DNA from: Pelagibacteraceae bacterium AG-470-E16
GTDB taxonomy: Bacteria > Pseudomonadota > Alphaproteobacteria > Pelagibacterales > Pelagibacteraceae
Direction of reading: 5' to 3'
DNA: 64,000 nucleotides
Assembly (NCBI GenBank): GCA_003209195.1
Contig: QCSF01000006.1
Coordinates: forward strand, 1 to 64,000
Shown here: piece after piece, positions 33,017 to 63,821 of the stretch
Layout: the number at the start of each line of letters is the position of its first letter
Numbering within the stretch: position 1 is the first letter of the stretch
Translations under genes and position numbers: made by a program
Notes under the pieces: generated by a model
What the model saw: the letters and a program-made list of their open reading frames with translations, nothing else
Databases searched by the model: none
What the model was told of the DNA's origin: nothing

Positions 33017-33065
33017 CAGATTTAATATACTTTAATTTTAGAATCTTTCATTTATATTAAATCTT

Positions 33066-33330
33066 GTTGGATTTCCAACTATGGTGATAAACGAAATTCG
33101 AAATAAACATTTCGGACCAGGGGGCGGTACCCTGCACCTCCACCAAATACAACTCATGGGGGTGAAATAGGCTCGACGGATGTCTAAAGGCTTTTCTTTT
33201 ACCCGGTATTGTTCCGCCGCAATGGGCTAATTTATAAATGCTAACGAAAGTTATGCGCTTGCTGCTTAATTAACTTAGGTTAATTTTGCAAACGGGGTCT
33301 GGGGCACCTGGCAACAGAACGCCCCTTCTA
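33066..33330 (+). ncRNA. ssrA: Two-piece (circularly permuted) tmRNA
   Basis: The 3' (acceptor) piece comes first: T-stem CAGGG/CCCTG (33118-33122/33130-33134) with loop GGCGGTA, then acceptor strand CACCTCC (33135-33141), A and an encoded CCA (33143-33145). After only 12 nt comes the 5' (coding) piece, starting GGGGGTG (33158-33164), which pairs with the acceptor strand and gives the G3-U pair that marks tRNA-Ala identity. AAATAGGCTCGACGG follows. The tag frame starts at 33240: GCT AAC GAA AGT TAT GCG CTT GCT GCT TAA (ANESYALAA). CGGAC (33113-33117) pairs with GTCTG (33297-33301). GGGGC/GCCCC near 33301-33325 ends the coding piece. The outer ends are approximate. The RNA rescues stalled ribosomes. 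Confidence 0.93.
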
Positions 33331-33336
33331 TTTTAT

Positions 33337-33741
33337 CTAATAATTCTCATTTTTTTTTATTTTAAAATCTATCAAAGCTAAATAAGTAAAGACAAACTGT
33401 ATAGCCATGAGTAAATGGAATAATCTTCCATATGGAATTCCCATTCCGTTATAAGCAATCCAAGTATTAACTGGCAAAGTGAATAAAATAATTAATATTG
33501 ATAGAGTCAGTACAAGAATTGAAAATTTTTTTTTAAGATAAGAGTATGAACTTAATAAAACTAAGCAAAATCCTAGGGAAGTATACCAGTGCAGAATTCG
33601 CATCCCAGCATCAAAGTGGAGATGTGGAACTAAACATGCAAAAATATTTAAAAATACTAATGTATTAGGTTCTGGACCTAAGATTGGTCTCAGTCCACTG
33701 TAGTTAAACCACTTAACTAAATTTAATTTTTTTTTAGACAT
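33337..33741 (-). CDS. Hypothetical membrane protein, four helices
   Basis: A 134-residue protein I do not recognise. It has a basic start (MSKKKLNLVKW) and about four membrane helices (about residues 28-40, 45-68, 74-95 and 103-127), with short loops such as NYSGLRPILGPEPN and YNGMGIPYGRLFHLL. There is no signal peptidase site and no catalytic motif. It is the first gene after ssrA, convergent with it, and probably in one minus-strand run with the small secreted protein at 33751-33924. Confidence 0.7.
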   Translation of the reverse strand: MSKKKLNLVKWFNYSGLRPILGPEPNTLVFLNIFACLVPHLHFDAGMRILHWYTSLGFCLVLLSSYSYLKKKFSILVLTLSILIILFTLPVNTWIAYNGMGIPYGRLFHLLMAIQFVFTYLALIDFKIKKNENY

Positions 33742-35084: not shown

Positions 35085-35663
35085 CTAGATAACCCTTTTC
35101 ATTTCAGAAACTAGTTTTTTAAAATTTTGTTTTAAAATTTTATGACCTTTAAGATTTTTATTATAACATTGTCCTAGACTTTCATAATACCAAAAGACTA
35201 GTTTTTTATTAACTGAAAACCTGTTCCATATCTTTTTACCAACACGATAATAGTCATTGATAATACAAGATGCATTATGTGTCTTATCACAAATTGATAC
35301 TAGCAACGATGATTGATTTTTCTTCTTTAAGTCTGATATGTATTGTTTTTTTCTTTCAAACCACGGAGGTTTTGGAACAGCTTTAGTATCAGTGCAATCT
35401 TCAACTATTTTTGCAACTTTATTTCCAAATTTCTTTTTAATTAATTTAAGTGTTTTTTCACCACCTTGGTCTTCAACAGCATCATGTAAAAGAGCTGCTA
35501 TTGCTTCATCAGTGTTACCTCCATTTTCAATGACACAATTGCTTACAGATGATAAATGAAAAAAATAAGGAATTTTAGTTCCTTTTCTGAATTGTTTTGA
35601 GTGAAGTTCAAACGCAAAGTTTAATACTTCTAGATATTTTTTTTGATTAATTTTTTTATTCAT
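35085..35663 (-). CDS. Stand-alone HD hydrolase of the (p)ppGpp hydrolase (SpoT/MESH1) type
   Basis: A 192-residue protein with the hydrolase layout of RelA/SpoT enzymes: HSKQFRKGTKIPYFFHLSSV (metal-binding His), AALLHDAVEDQGG (the HDxxED motif), PPWFERKKQYISDLKKK, and VSICDKTHNASCI (the later metal Asp). No synthetase or ACT domain follows. Such proteins can cleave ppGpp or related nucleotides, but some HD proteins of this build have other substrates. It overlaps the upstream 133-residue gene by 4 bp and ends in a 381-bp gap. Confidence 0.82.
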   Translation of the reverse strand: MNKKINQKKYLEVLNFAFELHSKQFRKGTKIPYFFHLSSVSNCVIENGGNTDEAIAALLHDAVEDQGGEKTLKLIKKKFGNKVAKIVEDCTDTKAVPKPPWFERKKQYISDLKKKNQSSLLVSICDKTHNASCIINDYYRVGKKIWNRFSVNKKLVFWYYESLGQCYNKNLKGHKILKQNFKKLVSEMKRVI

Positions 35664-36064: not shown

Positions 36065-36292
36065 CTATTGTGATTTACTTCTTTTTTTCTTTTCTTTTCT
36101 CCAAAGAAAAAAAAATAAAATAATTAGTGCTGGTTGCAAAATAACAAAAATAATGATGTTTATTAATTCATAAGATATTCCTAATAACTCTGCCAAGTCA
36201 ACTAGAACTATAACACATATTCTAAAGATGAAGTCTATAAATTCAAAACCTGAATTCCCCATGGTGTTGTATGCGTCTATATATTTATTCAT
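36065..36292 (-). CDS. Hypothetical small membrane protein, 75 residues
   Basis: A 75-residue protein with two hydrophobic helices (about residues 17-36 and 43-65) separated by a short loop (ELLGISYEL), and a strongly basic cytoplasmic-looking tail, WRKEKKKRSKSQ. I do not recognise a family. It is the first gene of a three-gene minus-strand unit with a coiled-coil protein and the HD hydrolase, and lies 9 bp from the sulfotransferase gene upstream. Confidence 0.6.
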   Translation of the reverse strand: MNKYIDAYNTMGNSGFEFIDFIFRICVIVLVDLAELLGISYELINIIIFVILQPALIILFFFLWRKEKKKRSKSQ

Positions 36293-36301
36293 ATAATAGA
36301 T

Positions 36302-37321
36302 TTAACATTTTCTTAAATTATCATAAATTTTATTACAATCCTCTAAAATTTTTGTTTCTTTTTCAGATAGATTTTCATTTTTAAAAGAAACGTTGTGATT
36401 TTCTATATCATCAGTTCTAATCTTATTTATTTCATAATCGTCCAAAAAACTCTTAAAAAAATGATGTGGGTTTTTACAAAAATCCTCATAGCTTAAAAAA
36501 AATATATTTGAATGACTAAATTTTTTTAAATACAAATATGTGTCTTTCCACTTTGAAAGCCAAAAAAAATTATCTTTATAATCTTGAGATTTGTTGGTTA
36601 AGAATTCATAATGTTTATGAGTTAATCCAAATTCATAATGTCCTAAATAATTAAAATAATTTTGATAAAAAAAATTATTTTTATGCAAATCTAAAAAATT
36701 AAAAAATTGTTTTTTAAGTGAATGAATATGATTTAACGGATCTCTATACATTATAATAAATAAGTTGTCTCCAGAAAGAGAAAGTAATTTATTAATTCTT
36801 AAAATATTATTATTATTTTTTGAAATATATTTTTTCTTATTATAACTTTGGCAAACCATTTCAACATATTTTTTGTAATCCTCTAAAGTTTCATTTGATA
36901 TGTTATGAACTTTTAAAATGTCACTCACTATGAAATTTTTTTTTTCGAATGTTAACCAAAAGACTTCATCAAATGCCTCTGGACTTTTATTATCAATTTT
37001 AATTCTATCTCCATGCATTCTTTCTGATTTTTTATTTTTTTTTATAAAAATTTTAGATATTTTTCTCCAAATTAATGGCGACATTACAAATGGCATATTT
37101 TCATAGGTAAGCGATGCAAATGTATTAGTTTCATAAATTTTATTTAATAAAATAGAAGTTCCTGATCGAGGTAAACCAAATATAAAAACTTTTTTATCAA
37201 GATTAAAATTCTTTTTAAAAAAGACTTTCTCAAAGTCAAAGACGACTCTGTTAAAAAAAGGAAAATATAATAAAAAATTTATAATTCCTTTCTCAAAAAA
37301 ATTAAATTTCTGTTTTTTCAT
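36302..37321 (-). CDS. Sulfotransferase family protein (PAPS-type P-loop)
   Basis: A 339-residue protein with VFIFGLPRSGTSILLNKIYE near residue 45, the 5'-phosphosulfate-binding loop of PAPS-dependent sulfotransferases, and a later IIMYRDPLNHIHSLKKQ (about residue 185) that fits the 3'-phosphate-binding RDP motif. Near the C-terminus is FFLSYEDFCKNP, also typical. It would transfer sulfate from PAPS to an unknown acceptor, perhaps a surface sugar or lipid. It overlaps by 20 bp the small membrane protein gene upstream, which in turn overlaps an arylsulfotransferase-like gene. Confidence 0.82.
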   Translation of the reverse strand: MKKQKFNFFEKGIINFLLYFPFFNRVVFDFEKVFFKKNFNLDKKVFIFGLPRSGTSILLNKIYETNTFASLTYENMPFVMSPLIWRKISKIFIKKNKKSERMHGDRIKIDNKSPEAFDEVFWLTFEKKNFIVSDILKVHNISNETLEDYKKYVEMVCQSYNKKKYISKNNNNILRINKLLSLSGDNLFIIMYRDPLNHIHSLKKQFFNFLDLHKNNFFYQNYFNYLGHYEFGLTHKHYEFLTNKSQDYKDNFFWLSKWKDTYLYLKKFSHSNIFFLSYEDFCKNPHHFFKSFLDDYEINKIRTDDIENHNVSFKNENLSEKETKILEDCNKIYDNLRKC

Positions 37322-37508
37322 TTTTTTTTTTCAATTTATTTTTAAAAAAAATAAATGGATAATATACCAATGCGAAAATAACTAATACTATCGCTAAAAA
37401 AAATAAAAATATTAATATTGTTCCACCAATTCCTAAAGCCGGACCGATGTAAGCTTTTACAGCTTGGGGTATAAGAATAAAAAAAAATAAAATTAAAATT
37501 AATTGCAT
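37302..37508 (-). CDS. Small membrane protein with YIGPxLGxGG motif
   Basis: A 68-residue protein: a signal-like hydrophobic start ending PQAVKA, then YIGPALGIGGTILIFLFFL leading into a second helix, a YYPF element and a basic tail (FKNKLKKKNEKTEI). I have a memory of similar YIGPG-helix-YP-basic small proteins near polysaccharide and alkaline-phosphatase-like genes in marine bacteria, but no named family or function. It overlaps the genes on both sides (20 bp and 10 bp), so it is an integral part of the cassette. Confidence 0.68.
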   Translation of the reverse strand: MQLILILFFFILIPQAVKAYIGPALGIGGTILIFLFFLAIVLVIFALVYYPFIFFKNKLKKKNEKTEI

Positions 37509-38794
37509 TTTGTATTTTTTATTTTATCTACAGTTTTTTCTAAATTCCAATTTTTGATTGTATATTTATTATAAATTCTCGACCACTTTACTACAGCATC
37601 CCAATTGTAAATCCACTCTAATTCTCCCAGACTATCGAATTTATAAAGTTTACCTTGGTCTTGTTCTTCAACAAAGACAAATTGATTTTTTATAGCCTCA
37701 TGTAAACCTTCATAATAAGTATCAATTTTATATTTTTTAAAAGACTCACTGATAAGTTTAGAGGTTTTCATCGTCTCAAAATCATAAATTATAATATTAT
37801 TATTATTATAAACATTCTTAAGACTCAAATCGGTATTGTTGTTAAACACTGTGATTTTTGTTTCATCGTATAGATCAACATCATGCTGATGTCTCCATGG
37901 GCCAGTTTTATACCACAAAACTTTATTTGTTGATGGACGATATAATAAAACCATTGAAATGTTTCTCAATGACAGAAACAAATCTCCTTTTTTCCAAAAT
38001 TTTCCGTCTTTTAATACTGGCTGAATATCATTCAAATGTAATGGATCTTCTCCTGAGTAAGCATTTGTAATTAAATCATTAAGCCCATTTTCATTAAAAA
38101 TTTCTAATAAAGACTTTTTATAAATTACCTTACCATCATTTGTATCAATATTAACAATTGCATCGTGAAGAATGTTTTTACCTTGATACATTTTAGTTTG
38201 TAAATAAATTGGGATCCATAAATTATTTAAGTAATCAAGCTCTTTACTATGATGAGATGGTAATTTTTGCTCCCATAATATATTTGAACATATATCTATT
38301 TTTTTTATTGGCTGACCACCAGAGCTTATTATAACCTCGCCGTTCTCCATCATTAATGAATGTTCGTATGTATATTTTCGAGAAACATCTTCATTTTTAT
38401 GACCTTGTTTAACTTCAATATTTTTATTATTTAAAGACCACACATGTATTTTTTTATTTTGATTAATATCAAGTAATTCTAGTCTAAATTTTTTTTCTTC
38501 AAGATGAAATTTTGAAATTAATAAATAATCTTGATATTTTAATTTTTTTATTTTTTTTAAGCCATAATTTTTTTTTTCAAAGACTTTGTCTTTTTTTTCA
38601 ATGGATAAATCACCACCAAAATAATATGTTTTAATATTTGATGGTATTTGAGAAATTTTATAACTAAATTGAAAAAAAATATTTTCAGAGTAAGGGCCTT
38701 TGGTAATTACATGATTTACCATAGCACCATTAATTACAATAAAAATAAAAAAAAAAGATAGAATCGCGAGAGAAAAGAATAATTTTTTGAGCAT
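37499..38794 (-). CDS. Arylsulfotransferase-like (ASST family) membrane-anchored protein
   Basis: A 431-residue protein with one N-terminal membrane helix (about residues 5-25) and a large periplasmic part with beta-propeller character. Motifs matching the ASST/PF14269-type family include EHSLMMENGEVIISSG, DPLHLNDIQPVLKDG, GDLFLSLRNISMVLLYRPST, VLWYKTGPWRHQHDVDLYDE (with the conserved HxHD-like His cluster) and a late FVFVEEQDQGKLYKF. PAPS-independent arylsulfotransferases move sulfate between phenolic compounds; many family members are uncharacterised, so sulfotransfer is a hypothesis. It leads a three-gene overlapping unit with the small membrane protein and the PAPS sulfotransferase. Confidence 0.75.
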   Translation of the reverse strand: MLKKLFFSLAILSFFFIFIVINGAMVNHVITKGPYSENIFFQFSYKISQIPSNIKTYYFGGDLSIEKKDKVFEKKNYGLKKIKKLKYQDYLLISKFHLEEKKFRLELLDINQNKKIHVWSLNNKNIEVKQGHKNEDVSRKYTYEHSLMMENGEVIISSGGQPIKKIDICSNILWEQKLPSHHSKELDYLNNLWIPIYLQTKMYQGKNILHDAIVNIDTNDGKVIYKKSLLEIFNENGLNDLITNAYSGEDPLHLNDIQPVLKDGKFWKKGDLFLSLRNISMVLLYRPSTNKVLWYKTGPWRHQHDVDLYDETKITVFNNNTDLSLKNVYNNNNIIIYDFETMKTSKLISESFKKYKIDTYYEGLHEAIKNQFVFVEEQDQGKLYKFDSLGELEWIYNWDAVVKWSRIYNKYTIKNWNLEKTVDKIKNTKCN

Positions 38795-53889: not shown

Positions 53890-55554
53890 ATGTATCAACA
53901 TTTAATACCAGTTATAAATTTATTTTGCACTAATATAATAATAATAATTAGTATCTATTCAGCGGGATATTTTTTTTTAAATCAATTTCAAGTAAAAAAA
54001 TTTTTTGGATTGATACTAATAAGTGGAGTGATAATCACTTCAATTCTCTCCCTTTTTATAAATTTTTTTTTACCAATAGATTACAAAATTTCACTTATTA
54101 TTATATTTATCTTATTTATCTATTTTCTAAAATTAAATAAATATAAAGCAGATTTATTAAAAATTATTATTATAAGTTTCCTATCAATTTTTTTTTATTA
54201 CGCGGGGAATAATGCTGAAGATTTTTCAATTTACCACCTAATAAATATTCAAGCTATTATCGAAAATAAGATTATTTTAGGATTAATTAAAATTAAACTA
54301 AATTTAGGGCAATCGCCAATCTCATTTTATGGTGACGCAATTTTTCAAAGTTTGCCGTTTATAAAAACTATTATTAATTATATGTCTTTTATAACTTTTG
54401 TCGGATTAATAAGCTTCCTAATTGAAATTATTAAATCGAAAAAACATTATTATTTTTCTGAATATTTTTTAATAATTTCAACTCTTTATGTAGTTTTAAA
54501 ATTTTCAAGATTAGGGTCACATGGCGCCGATCTAATATCATTAGTTTTAATATTATGTGGAATATATTTTTTTTTGAATATAAATTTTAAAAAAATTAAT
54601 CAAGAAGATAATTTTAATAATATTTTTTATACATTGACTTTTATAAGTAGCGCTATCTTCTTCAAAATTTTTTCTATCACGTATTATTTGCTTTTTTTTC
54701 TAATTTTATTTTTTCTTATTAAAAGGAAACAGATTAAAAAATATTATAAATTGATTTTTACTATTATAACTTTTAATTTATTTTTTTTGTTAAAAAATTT
54801 TTTAATATCAGGGTGTTTAATTTTTCCAATACAAGAAACTTGCTTCAATAACTTTCTATGGAGTAGTGATAATTATACAATTTATAACTGGAAATTAATT
54901 AATGAAGCATGGTCAAAAGGTTGGTATGATCATTTCTCAAAAAATTATTATGAATATATTAAAAATTTATATTGGTTAAATACATGGTTTAATAATCATT
55001 TTATTAAAAGTTTAGAAAAATTTTTTATTCCAATAATTTTGATTATAATTTTAATTAAAAAATTGAAAAGAGAAACAATTTACAGAAATAATATAAATTT
55101 TAATATTATTATTGTTTTTTTTGTCAGTTTTTTGTCTGTAACTTTATGGTTTTTTAATTCACCATTAACTAGACTTGGTCTTATCGGTCTAATCCCGCTT
55201 ATAATATTAATTTTAAACTTTAAATTTTTAAGAAATTTCAAATTTACATTATCAACTAATACAATAAGTTTTATAATAATTTTAATACCAATTTTTTTTC
55301 TAACAAAAAATACTTATAGAATTTATAATACTTCCTCGGACTACGAAAATTTTCCATATCCAAGAATTAACAAAAATGAGATAAAAAATGTTGATAATAA
55401 AAAAGTTAAAGTGAAACAAGAAAATGGAGTTAAATTTTATATATACGATAAAGAAAAATGTTTTACAATAAAATTTCCATGTTTACCAAAGTATAAGGAA
55501 AAAAAATTTTTATTTTTAAAAAAATATAACTATATAATTTTAAAAAATTTATGA
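53890..55554 (+). CDS. Large polytopic membrane protein, possible GT-C glycosyltransferase
   Basis: A 554-residue protein with about 12 or more membrane helices and a soluble C-terminal tail (about residues 475-554). Loops include YAGNNAEDFSIYHLINIQAI and KLNLGQSPISFYGDAIFQSL, whose acidic and His residues in the first large loop recall GT-C enzymes, but I do not see a decisive motif. It resembles membrane proteins of unknown function in polysaccharide loci. It overlaps the following glycosyltransferase gene by 4 bp, implying a shared pathway. Confidence 0.65.
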   Translation: MYQHLIPVINLFCTNIIIIISIYSAGYFFLNQFQVKKFFGLILISGVIITSILSLFINFFLPIDYKISLIIIFILFIYFLKLNKYKADLLKIIIISFLSIFFYYAGNNAEDFSIYHLINIQAIIENKIILGLIKIKLNLGQSPISFYGDAIFQSLPFIKTIINYMSFITFVGLISFLIEIIKSKKHYYFSEYFLIISTLYVVLKFSRLGSHGADLISLVLILCGIYFFLNINFKKINQEDNFNNIFYTLTFISSAIFFKIFSITYYLLFFLILFFLIKRKQIKKYYKLIFTIITFNLFFLLKNFLISGCLIFPIQETCFNNFLWSSDNYTIYNWKLINEAWSKGWYDHFSKNYYEYIKNLYWLNTWFNNHFIKSLEKFFIPIILIIILIKKLKRETIYRNNINFNIIIVFFVSFLSVTLWFFNSPLTRLGLIGLIPLIILILNFKFLRNFKFTLSTNTISFIIILIPIFFLTKNTYRIYNTSSDYENFPYPRINKNEIKNVDNKKVKVKQENGVKFYIYDKEKCFTIKFPCLPKYKEKKFLFLKKYNYIILKNL

Positions 55555-56435
55555 CAAAAATAAGTATAATTATACCCACAAGAGATCGAACAAATTTATT
55601 AAAAAAAACGCTTTTATTTTTAAAAAAAAATAATAGTTTTTACCAAGAAATAATAATAGTTGACTCATCAAAAAAAAAATCTTTTGATATAAATTCCAAA
55701 AATATTAAAACTTTAACAATTAAGGCAAACCATATTTTTTCTAAACCTTCGACATCTTTACAGAGAAATATTGGATTAAAAAAAGTTAGTAAATTTTCTG
55801 ATTTCGTGATGTTTTTAGATGATGATGTCAAATTTGAGAAAGATGCTCTTGAGAAAATGAAAAGCTTTATAACAAAAAATAGTGATTTTGCTGGATATGG
55901 TTTTAATTTAATAATTAAAAATCAAAACTTATCAAATATTTTGAAAATAAATAATTTATTTAATTTTTTTCAGTTATATTCTAACAAGCCTGGAAAGGTT
56001 GCAAAATCTGGATGGCATTCAAAAGCAATTAATTTAAAAAAAAAAACATTAGTAGAATGGCTCCCTACACAAGCAGTAATATATAAAATTAGTAATATTA
56101 AAAACATTTTTTTCTTTTTAGGATTTGGTAAATATAGTTACTTAGAAGATTTAGAATTTAGTTACAGAGTTAAAAAAACTGGTAAATTAGTTATATTAAA
56201 TACTGCAAAATACAGCAGTGATAACAGTGTAGATAGAAATCTATTTAATTTTGGAAAAAAAGAAATAATTAATAGATACATTTTTCTAAAAAAAAATAAT
56301 CTTTCAGTAAGTAAATTTTTAATAATGTGTTGTTTCATATGTTTAAGAAACTTTTTAAAAAGTTTTGTTAATCATAATTTTTTTTTGAGGTTATGTGGTA
56401 ATTTGCTCGGTTTATATAAAATATCTAAAATTTAG
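55551..56435 (+). CDS. Family 2 glycosyltransferase
   Basis: A 294-residue GT-A enzyme: ISIIIPTRDRTNLLKKTLLF, EIIIVDSSKKK, STSLQRNIGLKKVSKFSD, and FVMFLDDDVKFEKDALEKM (the DDD that binds metal and nucleotide sugar). A later YLEDLEFSYRVKKTGKL gives the ED motif of an inverting GT2. The sugar donor and acceptor are unknown. It overlaps the gene upstream by 4 bp, and its 3' end overlaps a convergent gene by 24 bp. Confidence 0.87.
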   Translation: MTKISIIIPTRDRTNLLKKTLLFLKKNNSFYQEIIIVDSSKKKSFDINSKNIKTLTIKANHIFSKPSTSLQRNIGLKKVSKFSDFVMFLDDDVKFEKDALEKMKSFITKNSDFAGYGFNLIIKNQNLSNILKINNLFNFFQLYSNKPGKVAKSGWHSKAINLKKKTLVEWLPTQAVIYKISNIKNIFFFLGFGKYSYLEDLEFSYRVKKTGKLVILNTAKYSSDNSVDRNLFNFGKKEIINRYIFLKKNNLSVSKFLIMCCFICLRNFLKSFVNHNFFLRLCGNLLGLYKISKI

Positions 56436-57290
56436 TTTCTTAAAAATCTTTTTTATTAAATGAATTGGTAAATTTGCATATAATTTAATATAAACTGTTA
56501 ATAATTCCAAGTTAATATCTTTTAGCTTTATTAATTTATATAATAAAAAATAATAAGACCCAAAATTATATAAGTAAGATAATTTATTATTTTTTATAAA
56601 TTTTCTAAAATAATAAAAATTTTCTTGCCAACATTTAATCTGCCATTCTCTATTTTCATTAAAATCAGAAAATTTGTTTTCGTATTTTATTAATTTAATA
56701 TCTTTATACAAATTTTGTGTTTTTAAATTCAATTTATCAGAACAAGCTATATAAAAGTTGTCAATCAAACCCCAATCATACTGATCATAGGTTAAAACCA
56801 AATCAAAAAACTCTTTTGCTTTATTTTTACTCAATTTAAAGGCCATAAAATCAATTCCGAAATGAGGAGTTGTAGGATTAAGTTTTATCCCATTTTTGAT
56901 TAAAATATTTGGAAAAATAAAAGACATGTGGTTCTCATTTTTATTTTTTTTTAAAATGTCTGCTATTTTATTATCAATAATTACATCTGAATTTGAAAAT
57001 ATAAAATAATCAAAATTATTATCTAAATAATATTTAAGCGTATTTTTTAACATTATTGAATTTGAGTATTTTTTATTTTTTGGAAGTCTATCTTTTGGAA
57101 AATTAAAGTATTTATATTTTATCTTATTGTCTATAATAAAATCTTCTATACCCTCTTCATCAAATTGTGTAACAGATAACGTAATATCTAAATCTAGCTT
57201 TGATATATTATTTAAGAATTTAGCCTGAATATCATCATTATCTTTAGATTTTTTTAAAGGTCTAAATGAAACTTGCCATAAAATTTTCAC
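56412..57290 (-). CDS. Putative glycosyltransferase, GT-A-like, family uncertain
   Basis: A 292-residue protein starting MKILWQVSFRPLKKSKDNDD. The segment DYFIFSNSDVIIDNKIADIL (about residues 94-113) looks like the nucleotide-sugar/metal (SD/DxD-like) element of a GT-A fold, and TTPHFGIDFMAFKLSKNKA then YDQYDWGLIDNFYI could contain acceptor-site residues. I do not recognise a family. It is the only minus-strand gene in the first part of the island and overlaps the GT2 gene tail to tail. Confidence 0.6.
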   Translation of the reverse strand: MKILWQVSFRPLKKSKDNDDIQAKFLNNISKLDLDITLSVTQFDEEGIEDFIIDNKIKYKYFNFPKDRLPKNKKYSNSIMLKNTLKYYLDNNFDYFIFSNSDVIIDNKIADILKKNKNENHMSFIFPNILIKNGIKLNPTTPHFGIDFMAFKLSKNKAKEFFDLVLTYDQYDWGLIDNFYIACSDKLNLKTQNLYKDIKLIKYENKFSDFNENREWQIKCWQENFYYFRKFIKNNKLSYLYNFGSYYFLLYKLIKLKDINLELLTVYIKLYANLPIHLIKKIFKKLNFRYFI

Positions 57291-57330
57291 GCTATATATC
57301 CTTTAAGTATAAGATTTTAATATAAAAAAA

Positions 57331-58572
57331 ATGTATAATAAATTGTTATCAATATTTGAAATTAAAAAAATTTCTCAAATTAATACTATAGACAAATTTT
57401 GTATAATATCTATTTTTTTGTTCCCTATAGCATTAGTAGCAGGTCCAGCCATAGTCGAATTGATAGTATTTTTGAATATACTGTGTTTTATTTTTAGATT
57501 TCGTAATTTTGAGATTTATATTAATAAAAAACTGCTTATTATATTAGGTGCAATCTATTTTATCTTTGTTCTTTCTTCACTTTTATCAGAATTCAAATTA
57601 CATTCTTTAAAAAGTTCCTTTTTTTCTTTAAGATTTTTTATCTTTAACTTTATAGTTTATGTTATACTTCAAAAATACAAATTTATTATAAGAGGTTTGG
57701 GTATATTTTATATATGTTTAATTTTATTTTTAATTTTTGATTGCTTTATACAAGTTATTTTCGCGGAGAATATTTTTTTTATAGATAGACAATCTAAGTT
57801 TGTTCATGCTGGTATGTTTGGTGATGAAAAGGTTTTAGGTAGTTTTTTAATTAGAATAAGTACAATAACATTAGGTTTATATTTTTGGTTTGTGGATTTC
57901 AATAAAAAAAATTTAACTAATGTTTTTATTTTTTTGATAATATTATTTTTAGGACTTTTATTTACAGGTGAAAGGACAGCTTTAGTTTATTTTTCTCTTT
58001 TGTTTTTAATAACTTTAATATTTGCCATAAGATCAAAATTATTAAGCATATTCAAAATATTAATATTTATTATCATTATAACTCTAATACCAATTTCACT
58101 TTATGTTAAATATTTTCCATTTCAACAAACGGTTATTGCTACAAAAAATCAAATTTTTCATAATAATAAGTTTAATTTTTTTTCAATAAAACATCAGTCT
58201 TTTAGTTTAACAGCAATTAAGATATTTGAAGATAATATGTTTATTGGTGGTGGGCCTAATAACTATAGAAAATTATATGACAAATATGATATATTTGAAA
58301 ATGAGTCCAATCATCCTCATAATATGTTTTTTCAGATGATAAGCGATCTTGGGCTAATAGGTTTTTTTGTTTACTTATTGGTTTTATTATCAATTATTCT
58401 AAACATTTCGAGAGGAATTATAAAAAATAATATTAGTTTAGTTTATTTTTCTGTTAGTTTTTTATTTTTTATAAATCCACTTTTTCCAACTGGTAATTTT
58501 TTTAATAATTGGTTTATGGCAATTGGTACGTTCGCATTACCATTTATGTACGCAAAAATTAAGGAAAAATAA
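57331..58572 (+). CDS. O-antigen ligase/polymerase-like membrane protein (Wzy_C type)
   Basis: A 413-residue protein with about 10-11 helices. The large periplasmic loop near residues 285-340 contains MFIGGGPNNYRKLYDKYDIF and ENESNHPHNMFFQMISDLGL, the latter being the H-x-HN motif typical of O-antigen ligases and related polymerases (PF04932). TGERTALVYFSLLF precedes it. It would join a lipid-linked glycan to a lipid A core or polymerise repeats. It ends TAATG, overlapping the flippase start by one base. Confidence 0.83.
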   Translation: MYNKLLSIFEIKKISQINTIDKFCIISIFLFPIALVAGPAIVELIVFLNILCFIFRFRNFEIYINKKLLIILGAIYFIFVLSSLLSEFKLHSLKSSFFSLRFFIFNFIVYVILQKYKFIIRGLGIFYICLILFLIFDCFIQVIFAENIFFIDRQSKFVHAGMFGDEKVLGSFLIRISTITLGLYFWFVDFNKKNLTNVFIFLIILFLGLLFTGERTALVYFSLLFLITLIFAIRSKLLSIFKILIFIIIITLIPISLYVKYFPFQQTVIATKNQIFHNNKFNFFSIKHQSFSLTAIKIFEDNMFIGGGPNNYRKLYDKYDIFENESNHPHNMFFQMISDLGLIGFFVYLLVLLSIILNISRGIIKNNISLVYFSVSFLFFINPLFPTGNFFNNWFMAIGTFALPFMYAKIKEK

Positions 58573-59924
58573 TGCGAGATTTATTATCAAAAAGTCTTAT
58601 TTTATCTTCGCCTGGTTTAATTTCATTAATTATTTCGTTAATAGCCATTCCAATACATTTGAATGAACAGGGGTTTGAAAATTATGGTAAGTATATTTTT
58701 TTTCATTTTATTTTATCTCTTGGATTACTCATAAATTTAGGTATTGGAAAAATGTCTACAATAGTTATAGGTCAAAATATTGATAAATTAAATTCTATTA
58801 TTAGTCAAAATTTAAAATATACATTAATAAAAAGTTCAATATATTTCTTATTTTATTTATCAGTTAATTTTTTTTTAAATCTTAATCATGACTTTTTAAT
58901 TTTTTTTATTGGTTTGACGCTCACATCAATTTATTTCTCTTTTGAAGGTATTTTCCTAGGTGAAAAGAAATTTATGAAAATTAGTATTTTAAATTTACTT
59001 TTTTTTAGCTTATCATTAAATGTTCCCTCACTGATGCTTTTTTACCAAAGCTATTCTGTTGAAAATTTAATTTTATTTTCAATAATTATCAAATTATTTA
59101 CGATTACTTTAATGATCATTGAATACCTAAAAAATATGAATTTAAGTATTAACAAAAATAATATTTTAGAAGAAAAAATTTTACAAAATTACAAATGGAT
59201 ATCTATGAATCTTTTGAACATACAAATCTCAAATTTTATAGACAAATACTTGGTAAAAATTTTTTTAGGATTGGATTTGCTCAGTAAATACTCAATACCA
59301 CAACAACTATCTGGCAAACTTAGTATATTTTCTCAGGGATTTAGTGCTTTTTTGTTACAAAATCTATCTGTTAAGAAAAATCAAAATACTAACTTAATAA
59401 CTTCAATTTTTTTATTCTTTTACCTTATGCCAATAATTATTTTTTTAGCATTTCCCTTATTTAATAAATTTTTGATATTTTGGCTAGATAATAATTATGA
59501 GTTTGAAATTTTTAATTTATTTAAAATATTTGTTATATATGCAGTTTTTTCATCTACATCTCATTTAGTGACTTCAAAATTTGAAGCCAACTTTAAAATT
59601 AAAAATAATTTCAAAATAGAATTAATTTGTCTGATACCTTTTGCTATTTTAATATTTATTGCAACAAAAAATAATTTTTCTTTATTAAATATTTCTATAA
59701 TAATGCTCATTAAAGAAGTATTACTCTTATCTTTAAGATTAAGATTTTTTAGGAGGGAACTGAGGTCTATTCAAAAAAAATACTTTTATAACTTATTTTT
59801 AATTATAATTATTTTGTATTCATCTTTTTTTAATTATGTAATTTTTTATTCAATTATTTTAATAATATATTTACCCTTTTTAATAAATGAATTTTATAAA
59901 TTATATTCTTCGAAAAATTTCTGA
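58572..59924 (+). CDS. Wzx-like polysaccharide flippase
   Basis: A 450-residue protein with 12-14 helices and the usual start SLILSSPGLISLIISLIAIP followed by FENYGKYIFFHFILSLGLLI, a pattern of MOP-superfamily exporters in polysaccharide loci. A charged mid-region (NNILEEKILQNYKWISMN) leads into NFIDKYLVKIFLGLDLLSKY, the repeat of the second half. It would flip lipid-linked oligosaccharides across the inner membrane. It begins at a TAATG overlap with the ligase-like gene. Confidence 0.82.
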   Translation: MRDLLSKSLILSSPGLISLIISLIAIPIHLNEQGFENYGKYIFFHFILSLGLLINLGIGKMSTIVIGQNIDKLNSIISQNLKYTLIKSSIYFLFYLSVNFFLNLNHDFLIFFIGLTLTSIYFSFEGIFLGEKKFMKISILNLLFFSLSLNVPSLMLFYQSYSVENLILFSIIIKLFTITLMIIEYLKNMNLSINKNNILEEKILQNYKWISMNLLNIQISNFIDKYLVKIFLGLDLLSKYSIPQQLSGKLSIFSQGFSAFLLQNLSVKKNQNTNLITSIFLFFYLMPIIIFLAFPLFNKFLIFWLDNNYEFEIFNLFKIFVIYAVFSSTSHLVTSKFEANFKIKNNFKIELICLIPFAILIFIATKNNFSLLNISIIMLIKEVLLLSLRLRFFRRELRSIQKKYFYNLFLIIIILYSSFFNYVIFYSIILIIYLPFLINEFYKLYSSKNF

Positions 59925-60840
59925 AAGTTTAAGTATTTTTTGGATAAACCCTCCAATTAAAAATTTAAATCAAGAAAAAAAAATTTATGAAATAATTAAC
60001 AGACAATTTATCAAAATTAATGTTAATAAAAAGGTTTTAAAAGAAACCCATTTGATTTTTAACTATAAAATTAAAAACATAATAAAAAAGAAAAACTTAA
60101 AAAATTTACTTAGATACCCCTTTGTTCAAAAAATTTTTTTTGTACACAACAGATTTTTTATTATAAGAGAATTACTTAAATTAAAATTATCAGTTAATTG
60201 GAATTTATATAAGAAACTTTTAAAAGAGAATTCAATCTGCAATCCGGTAAGATATTTTTTATATCCGAGTAGTTCTGGAAATAGAATACATCAAATATAT
60301 CATTTATATATTTTAGAGCATAATACAAATGCGCTAATTAAAAATTTTTCTAAAATATTTGAACTTGGTGGTGGTTACGGCTGTCTAGCTAGTATTTTTC
60401 AAAAACTAAATAAAAATAATAAAATGTTTTATGAGATTGTAGACACAAAAATAGTTAATTTAGTTCAATTTTATTATCTCAAAATGTTAAATTTTAACGT
60501 AGGATTTAATAAAAATTTCAAAATAAAATTAACAAATAATATAAACCAAAAATTTAAAACATACGATCTGTTTGTGGCAAATTGGTCTTTATCTGAAGTG
60601 CCGATAAAATATAGAAATAAATTTTTTAATATTATTAAAAACAGTAAATATTTTTTGATATCATTCCAGGAAAATTTCGAGGATATAGATAACTTAAAAT
60701 ATTTTTGTAATTTAAAAAATAAATTAAAAAATAATTTTAAGATTAAAATAATTAGAAATAGACTATATAAAGGAAGTATAATAAAAAAACAAAAACATTT
60801 TTATATGGTTGGAGAAAATATGAAATATGTTCAAAAATAG
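59887..60840 (+). CDS. Putative sugar O-methyltransferase
   Basis: A 317-residue protein. The SAM-binding motif I is KIFELGGGYGCLASIFQKLN (near residue 158), followed by YEIVDTKIVNLVQFYYLKML (acidic motif) and LFVANWSLSEVPIKYRNKFF. This spacing matches the putative sugar O-methyltransferase family (TIGR04371-like) found in polysaccharide loci. It overlaps the flippase gene by 38 bp and the next polymerase-like gene by 14 bp, so the true start may be a little later. Its acceptor sugar is unknown. Confidence 0.74.
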   Translation: MNFINYILRKISESLSIFWINPPIKNLNQEKKIYEIINRQFIKINVNKKVLKETHLIFNYKIKNIIKKKNLKNLLRYPFVQKIFFVHNRFFIIRELLKLKLSVNWNLYKKLLKENSICNPVRYFLYPSSSGNRIHQIYHLYILEHNTNALIKNFSKIFELGGGYGCLASIFQKLNKNNKMFYEIVDTKIVNLVQFYYLKMLNFNVGFNKNFKIKLTNNINQKFKTYDLFVANWSLSEVPIKYRNKFFNIIKNSKYFLISFQENFEDIDNLKYFCNLKNKLKNNFKIKIIRNRLYKGSIIKKQKHFYMVGENMKYVQK

Positions 60841-62152
60841 TATTATAGTGAACACTTTTTCAAATAAAAATTTGTTATCATTAATTTGTGTTACTATAGT
60901 TTTAAGTTTGTGGGCTGCGATTGATACTCATTTTTTTGATGTAAAACTTAATAATTTTAAAGACTTTGTACAAATTATAAGATCAATAGCTCCTTACACT
61001 TTTTTTATTATATTTATAATATTTGTTTTTATTAAAAATATTAAATCAATATTTATAAATTTTTTTTTTAATATCATAATTTTTTTCGTTTTTATAATTC
61101 AAATTCCAGGTTTATTTTATAGTTTTAATTCAATTTTAAATTTATTCTTTATTTTGAATTGTTTAATATATTTATATATTTTAAATTATTTTTATCAGGT
61201 TAAAAAACTTAATAATCTATTAAGTCTATCTTTTTCAATTTTAGCCGTAGTTTTTCTTTTTTTTGGTACTGGCCTTATGCATTGGTTAATATTTGAAAGT
61301 AAAGATTTAAATTTATACGGATCCTGGCCACATGGTTTAGAAAATTTTCAAATATCAGAAAATGTTCCTAGGTCTTCGGGGATGTCAAGAACAAGTATGA
61401 TTATATTTTTAATTTCTTCTATTCTTATTATTATTAAAAAGAACAAATATTTACCGTCTTTATTGTCAATTTTTTCTTTGATTTTAATTTTTACAACACA
61501 ATCTAGAATATCAAATTTTTTTATTATTGGATATCTAATATTTTATCATTGTGTATTATGTTTTTTGAAAATAACTGTTAAAGAAAAATTTGTTATATTT
61601 TTTATTTCATTTCTAATTCCTATAATTTTAATATCTGGAATTTCCTACTACCAAGTAAGTAAATCTAGTAAAAACAAATTAATCCAAAGTGATACAGAAA
61701 CAATAATTCAAAAAAGACTAAATAGGCCAATAGATGATGTTAATGTTGGTTTTGGATCAGGAAGAGGTAAAGACTGGAAAAAAATAATTCAACTGAACAA
61801 AAACTATTTTTTAGGAAATGGTGCTATGGGTGATAGGTACCTAATTAATCAATCAGCTTCAAATTTTTTTGTTTATTCATACTCGAGTGCAGGGCTTGTT
61901 GGTTTAGTTCTTGGTATAATATTATATTTCATATCTTTAACTTTAGCTATAAAAAACCTACTTTTAACAAATTTTCAGATTACAAAAAAAAATTATAAAA
62001 CTATTATTTGTTCTAACATAATATTATATTTACTTTTTAGATGTATAGGAGAAACATCCTTTGGAATATTTGGTATAGACTTTTTAATATTTTTTTGTTG
62101 CTTCTACTATTTAATACAAAATTCTAATTATAATATATATTTAAAAAAATAA
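60827..62152 (+). CDS. Second O-antigen polymerase/ligase-like membrane protein
   Basis: A 441-residue protein with about 10-11 helices. The loop before the last helices has DVNVGFGSGRGKDWKKIIQL and YFLGNGAMGDRYLINQSASN followed by FFVYSYSSAGLVGLVLGIIL, the arrangement of Wzy-type polymerases where the loop holds the catalytic Arg/His. The H-x-HN of the ligase-type protein at 57331-58572 is absent. The two proteins may be the polymerase and the ligase of the same pathway. Its end overlaps the convergent WecG-like gene by 12 bp. Confidence 0.75.
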   Translation: MFKNSIIVNTFSNKNLLSLICVTIVLSLWAAIDTHFFDVKLNNFKDFVQIIRSIAPYTFFIIFIIFVFIKNIKSIFINFFFNIIIFFVFIIQIPGLFYSFNSILNLFFILNCLIYLYILNYFYQVKKLNNLLSLSFSILAVVFLFFGTGLMHWLIFESKDLNLYGSWPHGLENFQISENVPRSSGMSRTSMIIFLISSILIIIKKNKYLPSLLSIFSLILIFTTQSRISNFFIIGYLIFYHCVLCFLKITVKEKFVIFFISFLIPIILISGISYYQVSKSSKNKLIQSDTETIIQKRLNRPIDDVNVGFGSGRGKDWKKIIQLNKNYFLGNGAMGDRYLINQSASNFFVYSYSSAGLVGLVLGIILYFISLTLAIKNLLLTNFQITKKNYKTIICSNIILYLLFRCIGETSFGIFGIDFLIFFCCFYYLIQNSNYNIYLKK

Positions 62153-62842
62153 TTTAATTAAACTAACAGATAAAAATACTCTCTTTAAATGAACTTTAGG
62201 GTTGTGAAATAGTCTTGTAAGCCAACCTAAATAAAACTTATCCAAAGTATCATTTATTGGAGCTTGATTTCCAGTTAAAAAACCAATTGCTGCTCCAGTA
62301 CAAATTATTGGAATTTTGGACCTAAAGTACTGATTTATTTCCATTGCTAATATCTCTTGTTTTTCACCAGCAATATTTATTAATATATAATCAGGTTTTT
62401 TTAATTTAATTAAATTAAATAACCTCAAATCTCTAAAGTTATATTTATAAAAGGGAGCTACGTAACTAAAACTTTTAATATTTCTAGATCTATAAAAATG
62501 TTGGTTTAGTTTTTTTTCATTTAAATTCGGGTCTATAGATAGAATTAATTTTTGAGTAAATATATTTTTTGATAAAAAATCTTTTAGAAATAAATATCCA
62601 GAATACTTAGTTATTTTATGTTTTTTAAAAATCCTCAATAAAATACAAAAATAACCACTATCCAAAATTGCAATTTTGGATTTTTTGAGAGCTAAGTAAT
62701 ATTTTTTATTTTTTTTTAATGTAGACAGAGAAGAAGCAGCTGGAGCTACCAGATAACCACCTTTATTTAAAATCAAATTAATTTTTTTAAAAGTGTAATT
62801 ATAAAATTTGATACTACAGAAAATTATAGTATTATTTTTCAT
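62141..62842 (-). CDS. WecG/TagA/CpsF-family glycosyltransferase
   Basis: A 233-residue protein with the GT26 pattern: GGYLVAPAASSLSTLKKNKK in the N-terminal half, KKPDYILINIAGEKQEILAM (the usual GxPxQE segment written GEKQE), VGxx replaced by ICTGAAIGFLTGNQAPINDT, and a C-terminal FYLGWLTRLFHNPKVHLKRV (normally EWxxRLxxxPxR). It would transfer an N-acetylmannosaminuronic acid or related sugar onto a lipid-linked intermediate. Some positions of the signature deviate, so specificity is open. Confidence 0.77.
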   Translation of the reverse strand: MKNNTIIFCSIKFYNYTFKKINLILNKGGYLVAPAASSLSTLKKNKKYYLALKKSKIAILDSGYFCILLRIFKKHKITKYSGYLFLKDFLSKNIFTQKLILSIDPNLNEKKLNQHFYRSRNIKSFSYVAPFYKYNFRDLRLFNLIKLKKPDYILINIAGEKQEILAMEINQYFRSKIPIICTGAAIGFLTGNQAPINDTLDKFYLGWLTRLFHNPKVHLKRVFLSVSLIKLFF

Positions 62843-62879
62843 AAACTAATACTTTATAACTATCATTAAACTTTAATAT

Positions 62880-63821
62880 ATGAAAAATAAAATTTTATTT
62901 TGGGTTACTGACTTTTCAACAAAAAGTGGTGAAGGGTTGTTAGCAATACGGTTTATTAACGATTTAAAATCAAATACTAACCTTAAAGTAATAAGAATTG
63001 ACAATAGAAAATTAATTTCAAAATTCAAAAAGAATACAATTACACATAAATATATTCTTCCAATATTAGGTATTTGGAATTTGTGGTTAGCATATTTCAA
63101 AGGATACAAAACTTGTTATGTCAATTATTTGCCATTATGGAATTTTTTAATTTTTTTTATATTACCTCCTAAAACTATCTTAGGACCAATAACTGGTACA
63201 ATTAGCAAACATAGAAGTTTTGTACTGAAAAGAATTTTAGAAATTATCAGCAGATTAATTATAAATATAAGATACAAAAAATGCTTATTTGCAAATAACT
63301 TCTACAAGAGTCTATTTACTGGCCATTACCATAATTATATTATTAAAAATTTAAATTTCAAAATTTATAAAAAAAAAAAAATTACTTATGATTTTCTTTT
63401 TTATTATAGAAAACAATATGATAAAGAGCTTCAATACCTAAATTTAATTATTAATTTAACTAAGTTAAATTTTAAAATAGCAATAATTGGGGATAAGTTG
63501 TTAGATAAGAACGTATCGAATTTTGGATATGTAAATACTAAAAAATTAGAATTAATAATGAAAAAAACAAAATCAGCAATAAATAACAAAGAAAATTTAT
63601 ATAGTTTTTTTGCACAAAAATGTTTGATTAATAATTTATCAGTATTTTATAATGATGAATTTATAAAATATGAAAAACTGAAAATTAAAAATTTTTACCC
63701 AATACCTTATAATAATTTAAAAATGGCTATTAACTTAATTTTAAGAAAAAAAAATTTATCAATCCTAAAGAATCAAAATATTAAATTGAATTTTAATAAT
63801 TACTTTTTTTATGACCCGTAA
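62880..63821 (+). CDS. Putative glycosyltransferase, GT-B-like, family uncertain
   Basis: A 313-residue protein beginning MKNKILFWVTDFSTKSGEGL, the kind of start seen in GT4-type enzymes. TCYVNYLPLWNFLIFFILPP and TILGPITGTISKHRSF follow, and a second half (about residues 175-313) has IAIIGDKLLDKNVSNFGYVN. Clear GT-B donor-site residues are not evident. It overlaps the gmhB-like gene by 11 bp, which supports a shared pathway. The 37-bp gap to the WecG-like gene holds promoters for both. Confidence 0.55.
   Translation: MKNKILFWVTDFSTKSGEGLLAIRFINDLKSNTNLKVIRIDNRKLISKFKKNTITHKYILPILGIWNLWLAYFKGYKTCYVNYLPLWNFLIFFILPPKTILGPITGTISKHRSFVLKRILEIISRLIINIRYKKCLFANNFYKSLFTGHYHNYIIKNLNFKIYKKKKITYDFLFYYRKQYDKELQYLNLIINLTKLNFKIAIIGDKLLDKNVSNFGYVNTKKLELIMKKTKSAINNKENLYSFFAQKCLINNLSVFYNDEFIKYEKLKIKNFYPIPYNNLKMAINLILRKKNLSILKNQNIKLNFNNYFFYDP

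Follow-up and report, generated by a model that had tools for sequence, protein, structure and literature searches.

A conserved gene trio of an ASST-like protein, a YIGP mini-protein and a PAPS-type sulfotransferase in Pelagibacteraceae and other alphaproteobacteria, and its possible role in two-step envelope sulfation

Three minus-strand genes in a 64,000-nucleotide stretch of DNA from Pelagibacteraceae bacterium AG-470-E16 (contig QCSF01000006.1, positions 1 to 64,000; hereafter the window) encode an arylsulfate sulfotransferase (ASST)-like protein, a 68-residue YIGP mini-protein and a sulfotransferase of the type that uses 3'-phosphoadenosine 5'-phosphosulfate (PAPS). The three genes are a genuine conserved unit, and the reading that we favour, at a probability of roughly 0.55, is a two-step sulfation of the envelope in which the PAPS enzyme would charge a membrane-borne carrier and a periplasmic ASST would spend that charge on an envelope acceptor. 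A first-pass annotation of this DNA had proposed a two-compartment sulfation relay and regarded it as undescribed; the relay gains from the conservation of the unit, from the diagnostic residues kept in both enzymes and from the presence of PAPS genes, whereas its novelty is not supported. The members of the cassette are:

37499..38794, minus strand: ASST-like (PF14269) sulfuryl transferase, 431 aa, with an N-terminal hydrophobic segment (1-31) followed by a beta-propeller

37302..37508, minus strand: YIGP mini-protein, 68 aa, with a signal-like N terminus, AYIGPxxG, a hydrophobic helix and a basic C-terminal tail (from hydropathy and homologue alignment)

36302..37321, minus strand: PAPS-type sulfotransferase (PF13469/PF00685), 339 aa

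Measured from the minus-strand open reading frames (ORFs), the genes overlap in series by 10 and 20 bp as had been claimed, and the two motifs named with them, YIGPALGIGG and LPRSGTS, are both present, the latter within GLPRSGTS. Pfam places the first protein in PF14269 (133.4 bits, E 1.5e-38) and the third in PF13469 (41.7 bits, E 2e-10), each against a cut-off of 27; the YIGP protein has no Pfam family above cut-off, and the cassette proteins match nothing above cut-off in NCBIfam.

The trio recurs well beyond the window. When 197 relatives, counting the window's own genome, were searched for the ASST protein, 5 were positive, and PF14269 gave the same 5; the ASST relatives in the four other family genomes are 33-42% identical, YIGP adjoins all four, and the sulfotransferase is also present in 3 of these loci, the fourth contig ending. 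Among 397 family genomes PF14269 has a match in 24, and above cut-off in 20, which we call the same-family carriers; the four sub-cut-off genomes have no YIGP nearby and were left out of the carrier count. All three genes occur together in 18 of the 20 carriers. Trio calls rest on ORFs for the window and on hidden Markov models from alignments A4 (ASST), A5 (YIGP) and A3 (sulfotransferase) for the others, and many genomes' own sequences are rows of these models, which favours them, although neither the YIGP copies from G266 and G771 nor any plasmid protein contributed to the models (G numbers denote genomes, L numbers loci and g numbers genera). One exception, G082, is a contig that stops just after YIGP. 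The order of the genes is variable: the PAPS enzyme lies on the opposite strand to ASST in G357, G457, G337 and G266, as does YIGP in G442, and since the members remain linked throughout, the set evidently stays together when the order changes.

Of the 29 genomes with an ASST match among 385 of the class, 27 lie outside the family, and the trio is present in 7 of the 12 of these that were read with wide flanks (G781, G665, G771, G653, G769, G607 and G634). ASST relatives were found in 6 of 72,556 plasmid records, those of Novosphingobium, Tateyamaria, Paracoccus, Sagittula, Paroceanicella and Rhodobacter, and in 6/6 YIGP and an annotated 'sulfotransferase' adjoin the ASST gene, the small cassette proteins being annotated 'hypothetical'. 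On four of the plasmids ASST is followed by YIGP, the small membrane protein and the sulfotransferase, in that order; on those of Tateyamaria and Paracoccus YIGP comes first and ASST last, and between them lies a sulfotransferase that bears a hydrophobic domain at its N terminus. No relative of the cassette was found in viral contigs. The chance overlap of unrelated genes was rejected, the trio being linked across many genomes and 27 of the 29 ASST-YIGP pairs with YIGP 3' of ASST on the same strand overlapping (taking the longest possible ORF start in some cases makes the overlap longer in L089 and L097).

Both enzymes retain the residues expected of sulfuryl transferases. In an alignment of 32 ASST sequences (A4), H181, H182, H253, N255, S275, Q303 and H304 are invariant in 32/32, and R277 is kept in at least 90%. 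The codons concerned are:

37883..37885, minus strand: H304, matching His436 of EcASST, which is transiently sulfated; invariant in 32/32, its QHD aligning with Cpz4

38036..38038, minus strand: H253 of the HxN motif (H253, N255); invariant in 32/32 and aligned with DYVHIN of Cpz4

37964..37966, minus strand: R277 of the SxRN motif; at least 90% of 32, aligned with SGRN of Cpz4

38249..38254, minus strand: H181-H182, both invariant in 32/32; proposed counterpart of EcASST His252, a match drawn from motif order and not from residue alignment

EcASST, the AssT protein of uropathogenic E. coli, uses His436 together with His252, His356, Asn358, Arg374 and Thr501, according to the accessible part of PMC13426309. 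Compared with the PDB, the A4 profile finds Cpz4, the ASST of caprazamycin synthesis, at 1.7e-8 with HxN, SxRN and QHD aligned, and E. coli ASST (3elq) only at E 0.11, in a stretch beginning at residue 434 opposite the residue two before H304, from which a hand count sets H304 opposite His436. Searches of the PDB with single cassette proteins (phmmer) gave nothing useful, and a profile of six ASSTs returned mostly designed propellers and no ASST. An AlphaFold model of the cassette protein (mean pLDDT 76) was compared by fold, and the closest relatives among the matches listed are Cpz4, in first place (Z 26.5, 3.3 A over 311 residues, about 12% identity), and EcASST (Z 24.1, 4.2 A over 322 residues, 13-14% identity), with unrelated propellers at Z 21.2 and lower. 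The ASST assignment is thus borne out by an ASST-type propeller fold in which the catalytic His and Arg set is kept. From its hydrophobic segment the protein is taken to be periplasmic and membrane-anchored, and by hydropathy a split between a periplasmic ASST and a cytosolic PAPS enzyme is plausible.

In the corresponding alignment of 25 sulfotransferases (A6), R52, G54, K168, R193 and S201 are invariant in 25/25, and two features stand out:

37154..37177, minus strand: 5'-phosphosulfate-binding loop GLPRSGTS, residues 49-56, with R52 and G54 invariant in 25/25

36719..36745, minus strand: 3'-phosphate-binding pair R193...S201, eight residues apart, both invariant in 25/25

The role and spacing of this pair are, we assume, those seen in SULT structures. 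The model of the PAPS enzyme (mean pLDDT 90.5) resembles STF9 (Z 17.6, 4.1 A, 277 residues), STF1 (Z 16.7, 4.7 A, 271) and the tyrosylprotein sulfotransferase TPST1 (Z 15.1, 3.8 A, 216) at 10-14% identity, and a sequence profile against the PDB has TPST1 as its best match at 2e-11. Fold and PAPS loop are common to the cassette enzyme, the mycobacterial STF1 and STF9 and the tyrosylprotein sulfotransferases. A6 has no invariant Glu at what we presume to be the position of the TPST catalytic Glu.

Most of the PAPS enzymes are accompanied by a membrane component. Among 31 trios (18 of the family, 7 of the class and 6 on plasmids), 20 encode a membrane protein of 115-240 aa, hydrophobic by eye, between YIGP and the enzyme, and in 3 (L094, L122 and L123) the enzyme is fused to an N-terminal hydrophobic domain; the remaining 8, the window among them, have neither. 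This suggests a membrane site of action for the PAPS enzyme in most carriers. The small membrane proteins (L079 5522-5887, L124 6172-6552, L101 3780-4502 and others) are of a kind of about 120 aa, often with SDxxKE, and a kind of about 240 aa, and those scanned have no Pfam family above cut-off.

The YIGP protein is short but strongly constrained, with A19, Y20, G22, P23 and P51 invariant among the 23 homologues of alignment A5. The residue of most interest is:

37449..37451, minus strand: Y20, the Tyr directly after a signal-peptidase-like AxA site (by eye)

From this position the Tyr may be the mature N terminus. It is present in 33/33 copies (the 23 of A5, L086, L089, L096, six plasmid copies and that of the Rhodobacteraceae bacterium SC52 plasmid), nine of which were not picked by a Tyr-bearing motif (the six plasmid copies by position alone; L089, L096 and SC52 by similarity), and L089 and L096 are without GP after the Tyr. 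The SC52 copy (L127 4953-5186) lies near genes for a sulfate adenylyltransferase/APS kinase (APS, adenosine 5'-phosphosulfate), a sulfotransferase-family protein, an acyl carrier protein and an MBOAT protein.

A PAPS supply is visible in the window's genome (an assembly of 0.97 Mb, 76% complete), which has both CysD and CysNC, and the idea of a genome without PAPS synthesis was rejected on that basis. No CysH was seen in this partial assembly, where the sole PF01507 match is CysD, and the PAPS therefore looks to be made for sulfation. A sulfotransferase had seemed surprising here on the ground that SAR11 lacks assimilatory sulfate reduction; with CysD and CysNC present, and PAPS apparently made for sulfation, the surprise is weakened. 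PAPS genes are present, both enzymes keep their diagnostic residues and the genes recur together elsewhere, which on every count is the reverse of what the first-pass annotation had named as fatal to its proposal. The accessible parts of the literature on Pelagibacter describe AprBA as thought to clear sulfite (PMC5069961, PMC12636525) and, for 'Ca. Pelagibacter ubique', give cysDNCHIJ and sat as absent in the text and cysC as present in 5/7 strains in Table 3 (PMC5069961). AprA is above cut-off in 18/20 carriers (not G000 and G457) and in 14/34 non-carriers.

A CysC-family kinase (PF01583) is found in all 20 same-family carriers and in 52 of 111-113 family non-carriers (Fisher 1.9e-6 with 113), a comparison of two different draws, uncorrected for descent, in which non-carriers were counted by hand and the family of two genomes was not shown; genus is a confounder, many g4 non-carriers carrying the gene. 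In 17 carriers the kinase has about 140 aa, in G022 it is a 257-aa form fused to a domain like nicotinamide mononucleotide adenylyltransferase (NMNAT), in G000 it is CysNC, and in G293 the sole match is a longer CysC-like gene, located 2.7 kb from one of its two ASST genes. A kinase profile of 15 rows, one of them a CysNC domain, has APS kinases on top in the PDB (1d6j, 9.4e-22), and the DxxR, F and R positions, which we take to be those that bind APS, align with it. The small kinase differs from CysC in having only about 140 aa, in matching the 152-position APS_kinase profile over about positions 4-91 only, and in its occasional fusion to the NMNAT-like domain.

The short form of the kinase stands beside the trio in 6/6 g5 trio carriers (L076, L077, L081, L083, L084 and L087) and beside the cassette in 0/12 of g3 and g4 (11 trio carriers and G082, in the stretches read), a contrast with a Fisher value of 5.4e-5 uncorrected for descent. 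The g5 non-carriers G011, G032 and G040 have no PF01583 match, yet AprA and an NMNAT-like gene are present, and G113, another g5 non-carrier, has the fused kinase-NMNAT form. In G634 a fused kinase lies beside the trio although a full CysNC is also present, so that a mere gap-filling role of the small kinase in PAPS supply becomes less likely. G010 and G115 encode candidate CysC kinases of 175 and 183 aa, below NCBIfam cut-offs, among surface-sugar genes.

The NMNAT-like gene is in a same-strand run with aprBA in g3 (G115, G009) and g5 (G233, G327, G011), the kinase also being in the aprBA run of both g3 loci, and the kinase and NMNAT-like genes of G010 and G384 (both g4) are found together, in G010 away from aprBA. 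Three stand-alone copies of the NMNAT-like protein have CTP_transf_like as best Pfam match, two of them also matching ATP-sulfurylase below cut-off (0.0048 and 0.00092), and the protein is a possible but weak candidate for a stand-in for ATP sulfurylase. The aprBA loci L111, L112, L114, L117 and L120 have the NMNAT-like gene in the run, with the kinase of about 140 aa in L111 and L114 and a TauE sulfite exporter gene following in L112. Kinase-NMNAT fusions are seen at L103 6675-7478, beside a trio, and at L021 4085-4858 and L119 3007-3816, near glycosyltransferase-like or sugar genes; the kinase-first order is presumably that of animal PAPS synthetase. The L119 fusion also lies beside a pyruvate-kinase-like gene, and in the window's genome a 119-aa NMNAT-like protein (L115 2827-3186) has a like neighbour at 1835-2830.

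A precedent for a two-step relay exists in caprazamycin synthesis, where, as the accessible part of PMC4257720 has it, the PAPS-dependent Cpz8 makes phenolic sulfate esters that the PAPS-independent ASST Cpz4 spends. The first-pass claim that such a relay was undescribed is thus not supported, and Cpz4 is the nearest solved structure to the cassette ASST. The likeness lies in the pairing of a PAPS enzyme with an ASST (in caprazamycin through triketide pyrones) and in the HxN, SxRN and QHD motifs shared at about 12% identity; nothing equivalent to YIGP or the small membrane protein appears in what could be consulted of that system. By analogy the cassette would work like a caprazamycin-type relay, and we do not file it as a member. 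EcASST has the same propeller architecture (Z 24.1) and the same His/Asn/Arg set, and is encoded, in the available text, with the disulfide system DsbL/DsbI (PMC13426309), whereas the cassette ASST is encoded with a PAPS enzyme. Among the papers listed from one open-access library, none names the three-gene set in its title or the start of its abstract, subscription literature being mostly outside the search, and no envelope version of a PAPS-enzyme-to-ASST relay appears among the papers listed. What is new is the conserved YIGP mini-protein, the membrane tether and the travelling kinase; what is known is the PAPS-enzyme-to-ASST relay itself.

A plausible scenario is that PAPS would be made in the cytoplasm, by CysD/CysNC in the window's genome, and that the PAPS enzyme, at the inner membrane face and in many carriers with a small membrane protein as its fusion partner or gene neighbour, would move the sulfuryl group onto a membrane-borne hydroxyl or phenol. 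The sulfate ester would then get to the periplasmic face, where the anchored ASST would take the group onto H304 and hand it on, most likely to a glycan or lipid of the envelope, with YIGP as a small single-helix partner of ASST at the hand-over. We infer this relay from the gene linkage and the caprazamycin analogy; that the product of one enzyme would be the donor of the other is part of the same proposal, as are the putative topology, carrier and acceptor. A more specific version, which we regard as improbable, would make YIGP itself the carrier: its Tyr, as the first residue after signal cleavage, would receive sulfate from the TPST-like PAPS enzyme and, as Tyr sulfate borne across the membrane by the protein, would serve ASST as aryl-sulfate donor. 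In most same-family carriers APS would then come via AprBA from sulfite, or from the NMNAT-like stand-in for ATP sulfurylase, and would be phosphorylated by the small CysC-like kinase that travels with the cassette in one genus.

Linkage alone gives no order of action, and the two enzymes could instead act in parallel, each with its own donor, and sulfate a single envelope molecule at separate sites or from opposite sides of the membrane; ASST would then draw on environmental aryl sulfates, much as EcASST is believed to draw on small phenolic sulfates around it (PMC13426309, accessible part). We give this about one chance in four, for the co-occurrence in 18/20 same-family carriers and 6/6 plasmid records is tighter than independent donors need, and Cpz4, the nearest solved homologue, acts in series with a PAPS enzyme. 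Cpz4 also serves antibiotic synthesis and ASSTs accept many phenols (same source, same part), so that a trio acting on small molecules, for detoxification or a secondary metabolite, can be conceived; hydrophobic segments in ASST and YIGP, the occurrence of the trio in genomes of about 1 Mb and the glycosyltransferase genes in the neighbourhood of some loci, that of the window among them, make this unlikely.

Several observations weigh against the envelope relay. ASST is not always accompanied: G293 has two ASST genes and neither YIGP nor PAPS enzyme in the stretches read; there is no trio in 5 of the 12 distant genomes with wide flanks (G501, G585, G650, G680 and G572, the contig of the last ending soon after ASST); neither partner was found in the other 15, for which the best match and 1.5-kb flanks were read; and L007, a Parvularculaceae ASST and the sole one from the genome-contig scan, has no partners in 13 kb. 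Conversely, the YIGP gene of SC52 has no ASST in the 10 kb read. The quality of the ASST model is moderate, and a type III polyketide synthase, the maker of the phenolic carrier in the caprazamycin pathway, is missing from the annotation of the 5-6 kb around the cassette on the 6 plasmids, where gene tables are incomplete and other parts, like the window's genome, lay outside the search. Finally, 19 of the 20 same-family carriers are without a clear CysD (completeness 57 to 99%), their PF01507 matches being absent or weak (19-34 bits over profile positions 2-79, the frames being about 520 aa long) and taken for another PP-loop protein, and a test of 14 genomes showed no Sat in any of the 5 carriers it covered, so that their PAPS route rests on the putative small kinase. 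These gaps could also mean that in the SAR11-like family either the PAPS enzyme or ASST no longer moves sulfuryl and transfers another group, which we consider very unlikely given the invariant catalytic and PAPS residues and the CysC-family kinase present in every carrier and beside every g5 trio.

The minus-strand run continues beyond the cassette with proteins that are outside the conserved set in the loci read, namely a 75-aa protein, a 133-aa protein and an HD-domain protein:

36065..36292, minus strand: 75-aa protein with two hydrophobic segments (ORF and hydropathy), 9 bp downstream of the sulfotransferase

The 75-aa protein has no Pfam family above cut-off and is a possible stand-in for the small membrane partner of other carriers. 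The HD-domain protein (35085-35663) resembles the hydrolase part of RelA/SpoT in Pfam and NCBIfam. The window, whose GC content of 27.7% is, like the size of its genome, in keeping with a SAR11 host, also has a transfer-messenger RNA gene at 33050-33360 with the tag ANESYALAA, and at 53890-63821, about 15 kb from the cassette, glycosyltransferase-like and polytopic membrane protein genes (by eye) that are perhaps a surface polysaccharide cluster.

If the envelope relay is correct, streamlined SAR11-like and other alphaproteobacteria would sulfate their envelopes by moving an activated sulfuryl group across the inner membrane, and a mini-protein annotated as 'hypothetical' on plasmids would have a role. 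It would also explain why PAPS genes are kept in a genome without a visible CysH, and the use of APS by AprBA-bearing relatives would become testable. Sulfated surfaces could in turn bear on phage attachment, on grazing and on the marine organic sulfur pool.

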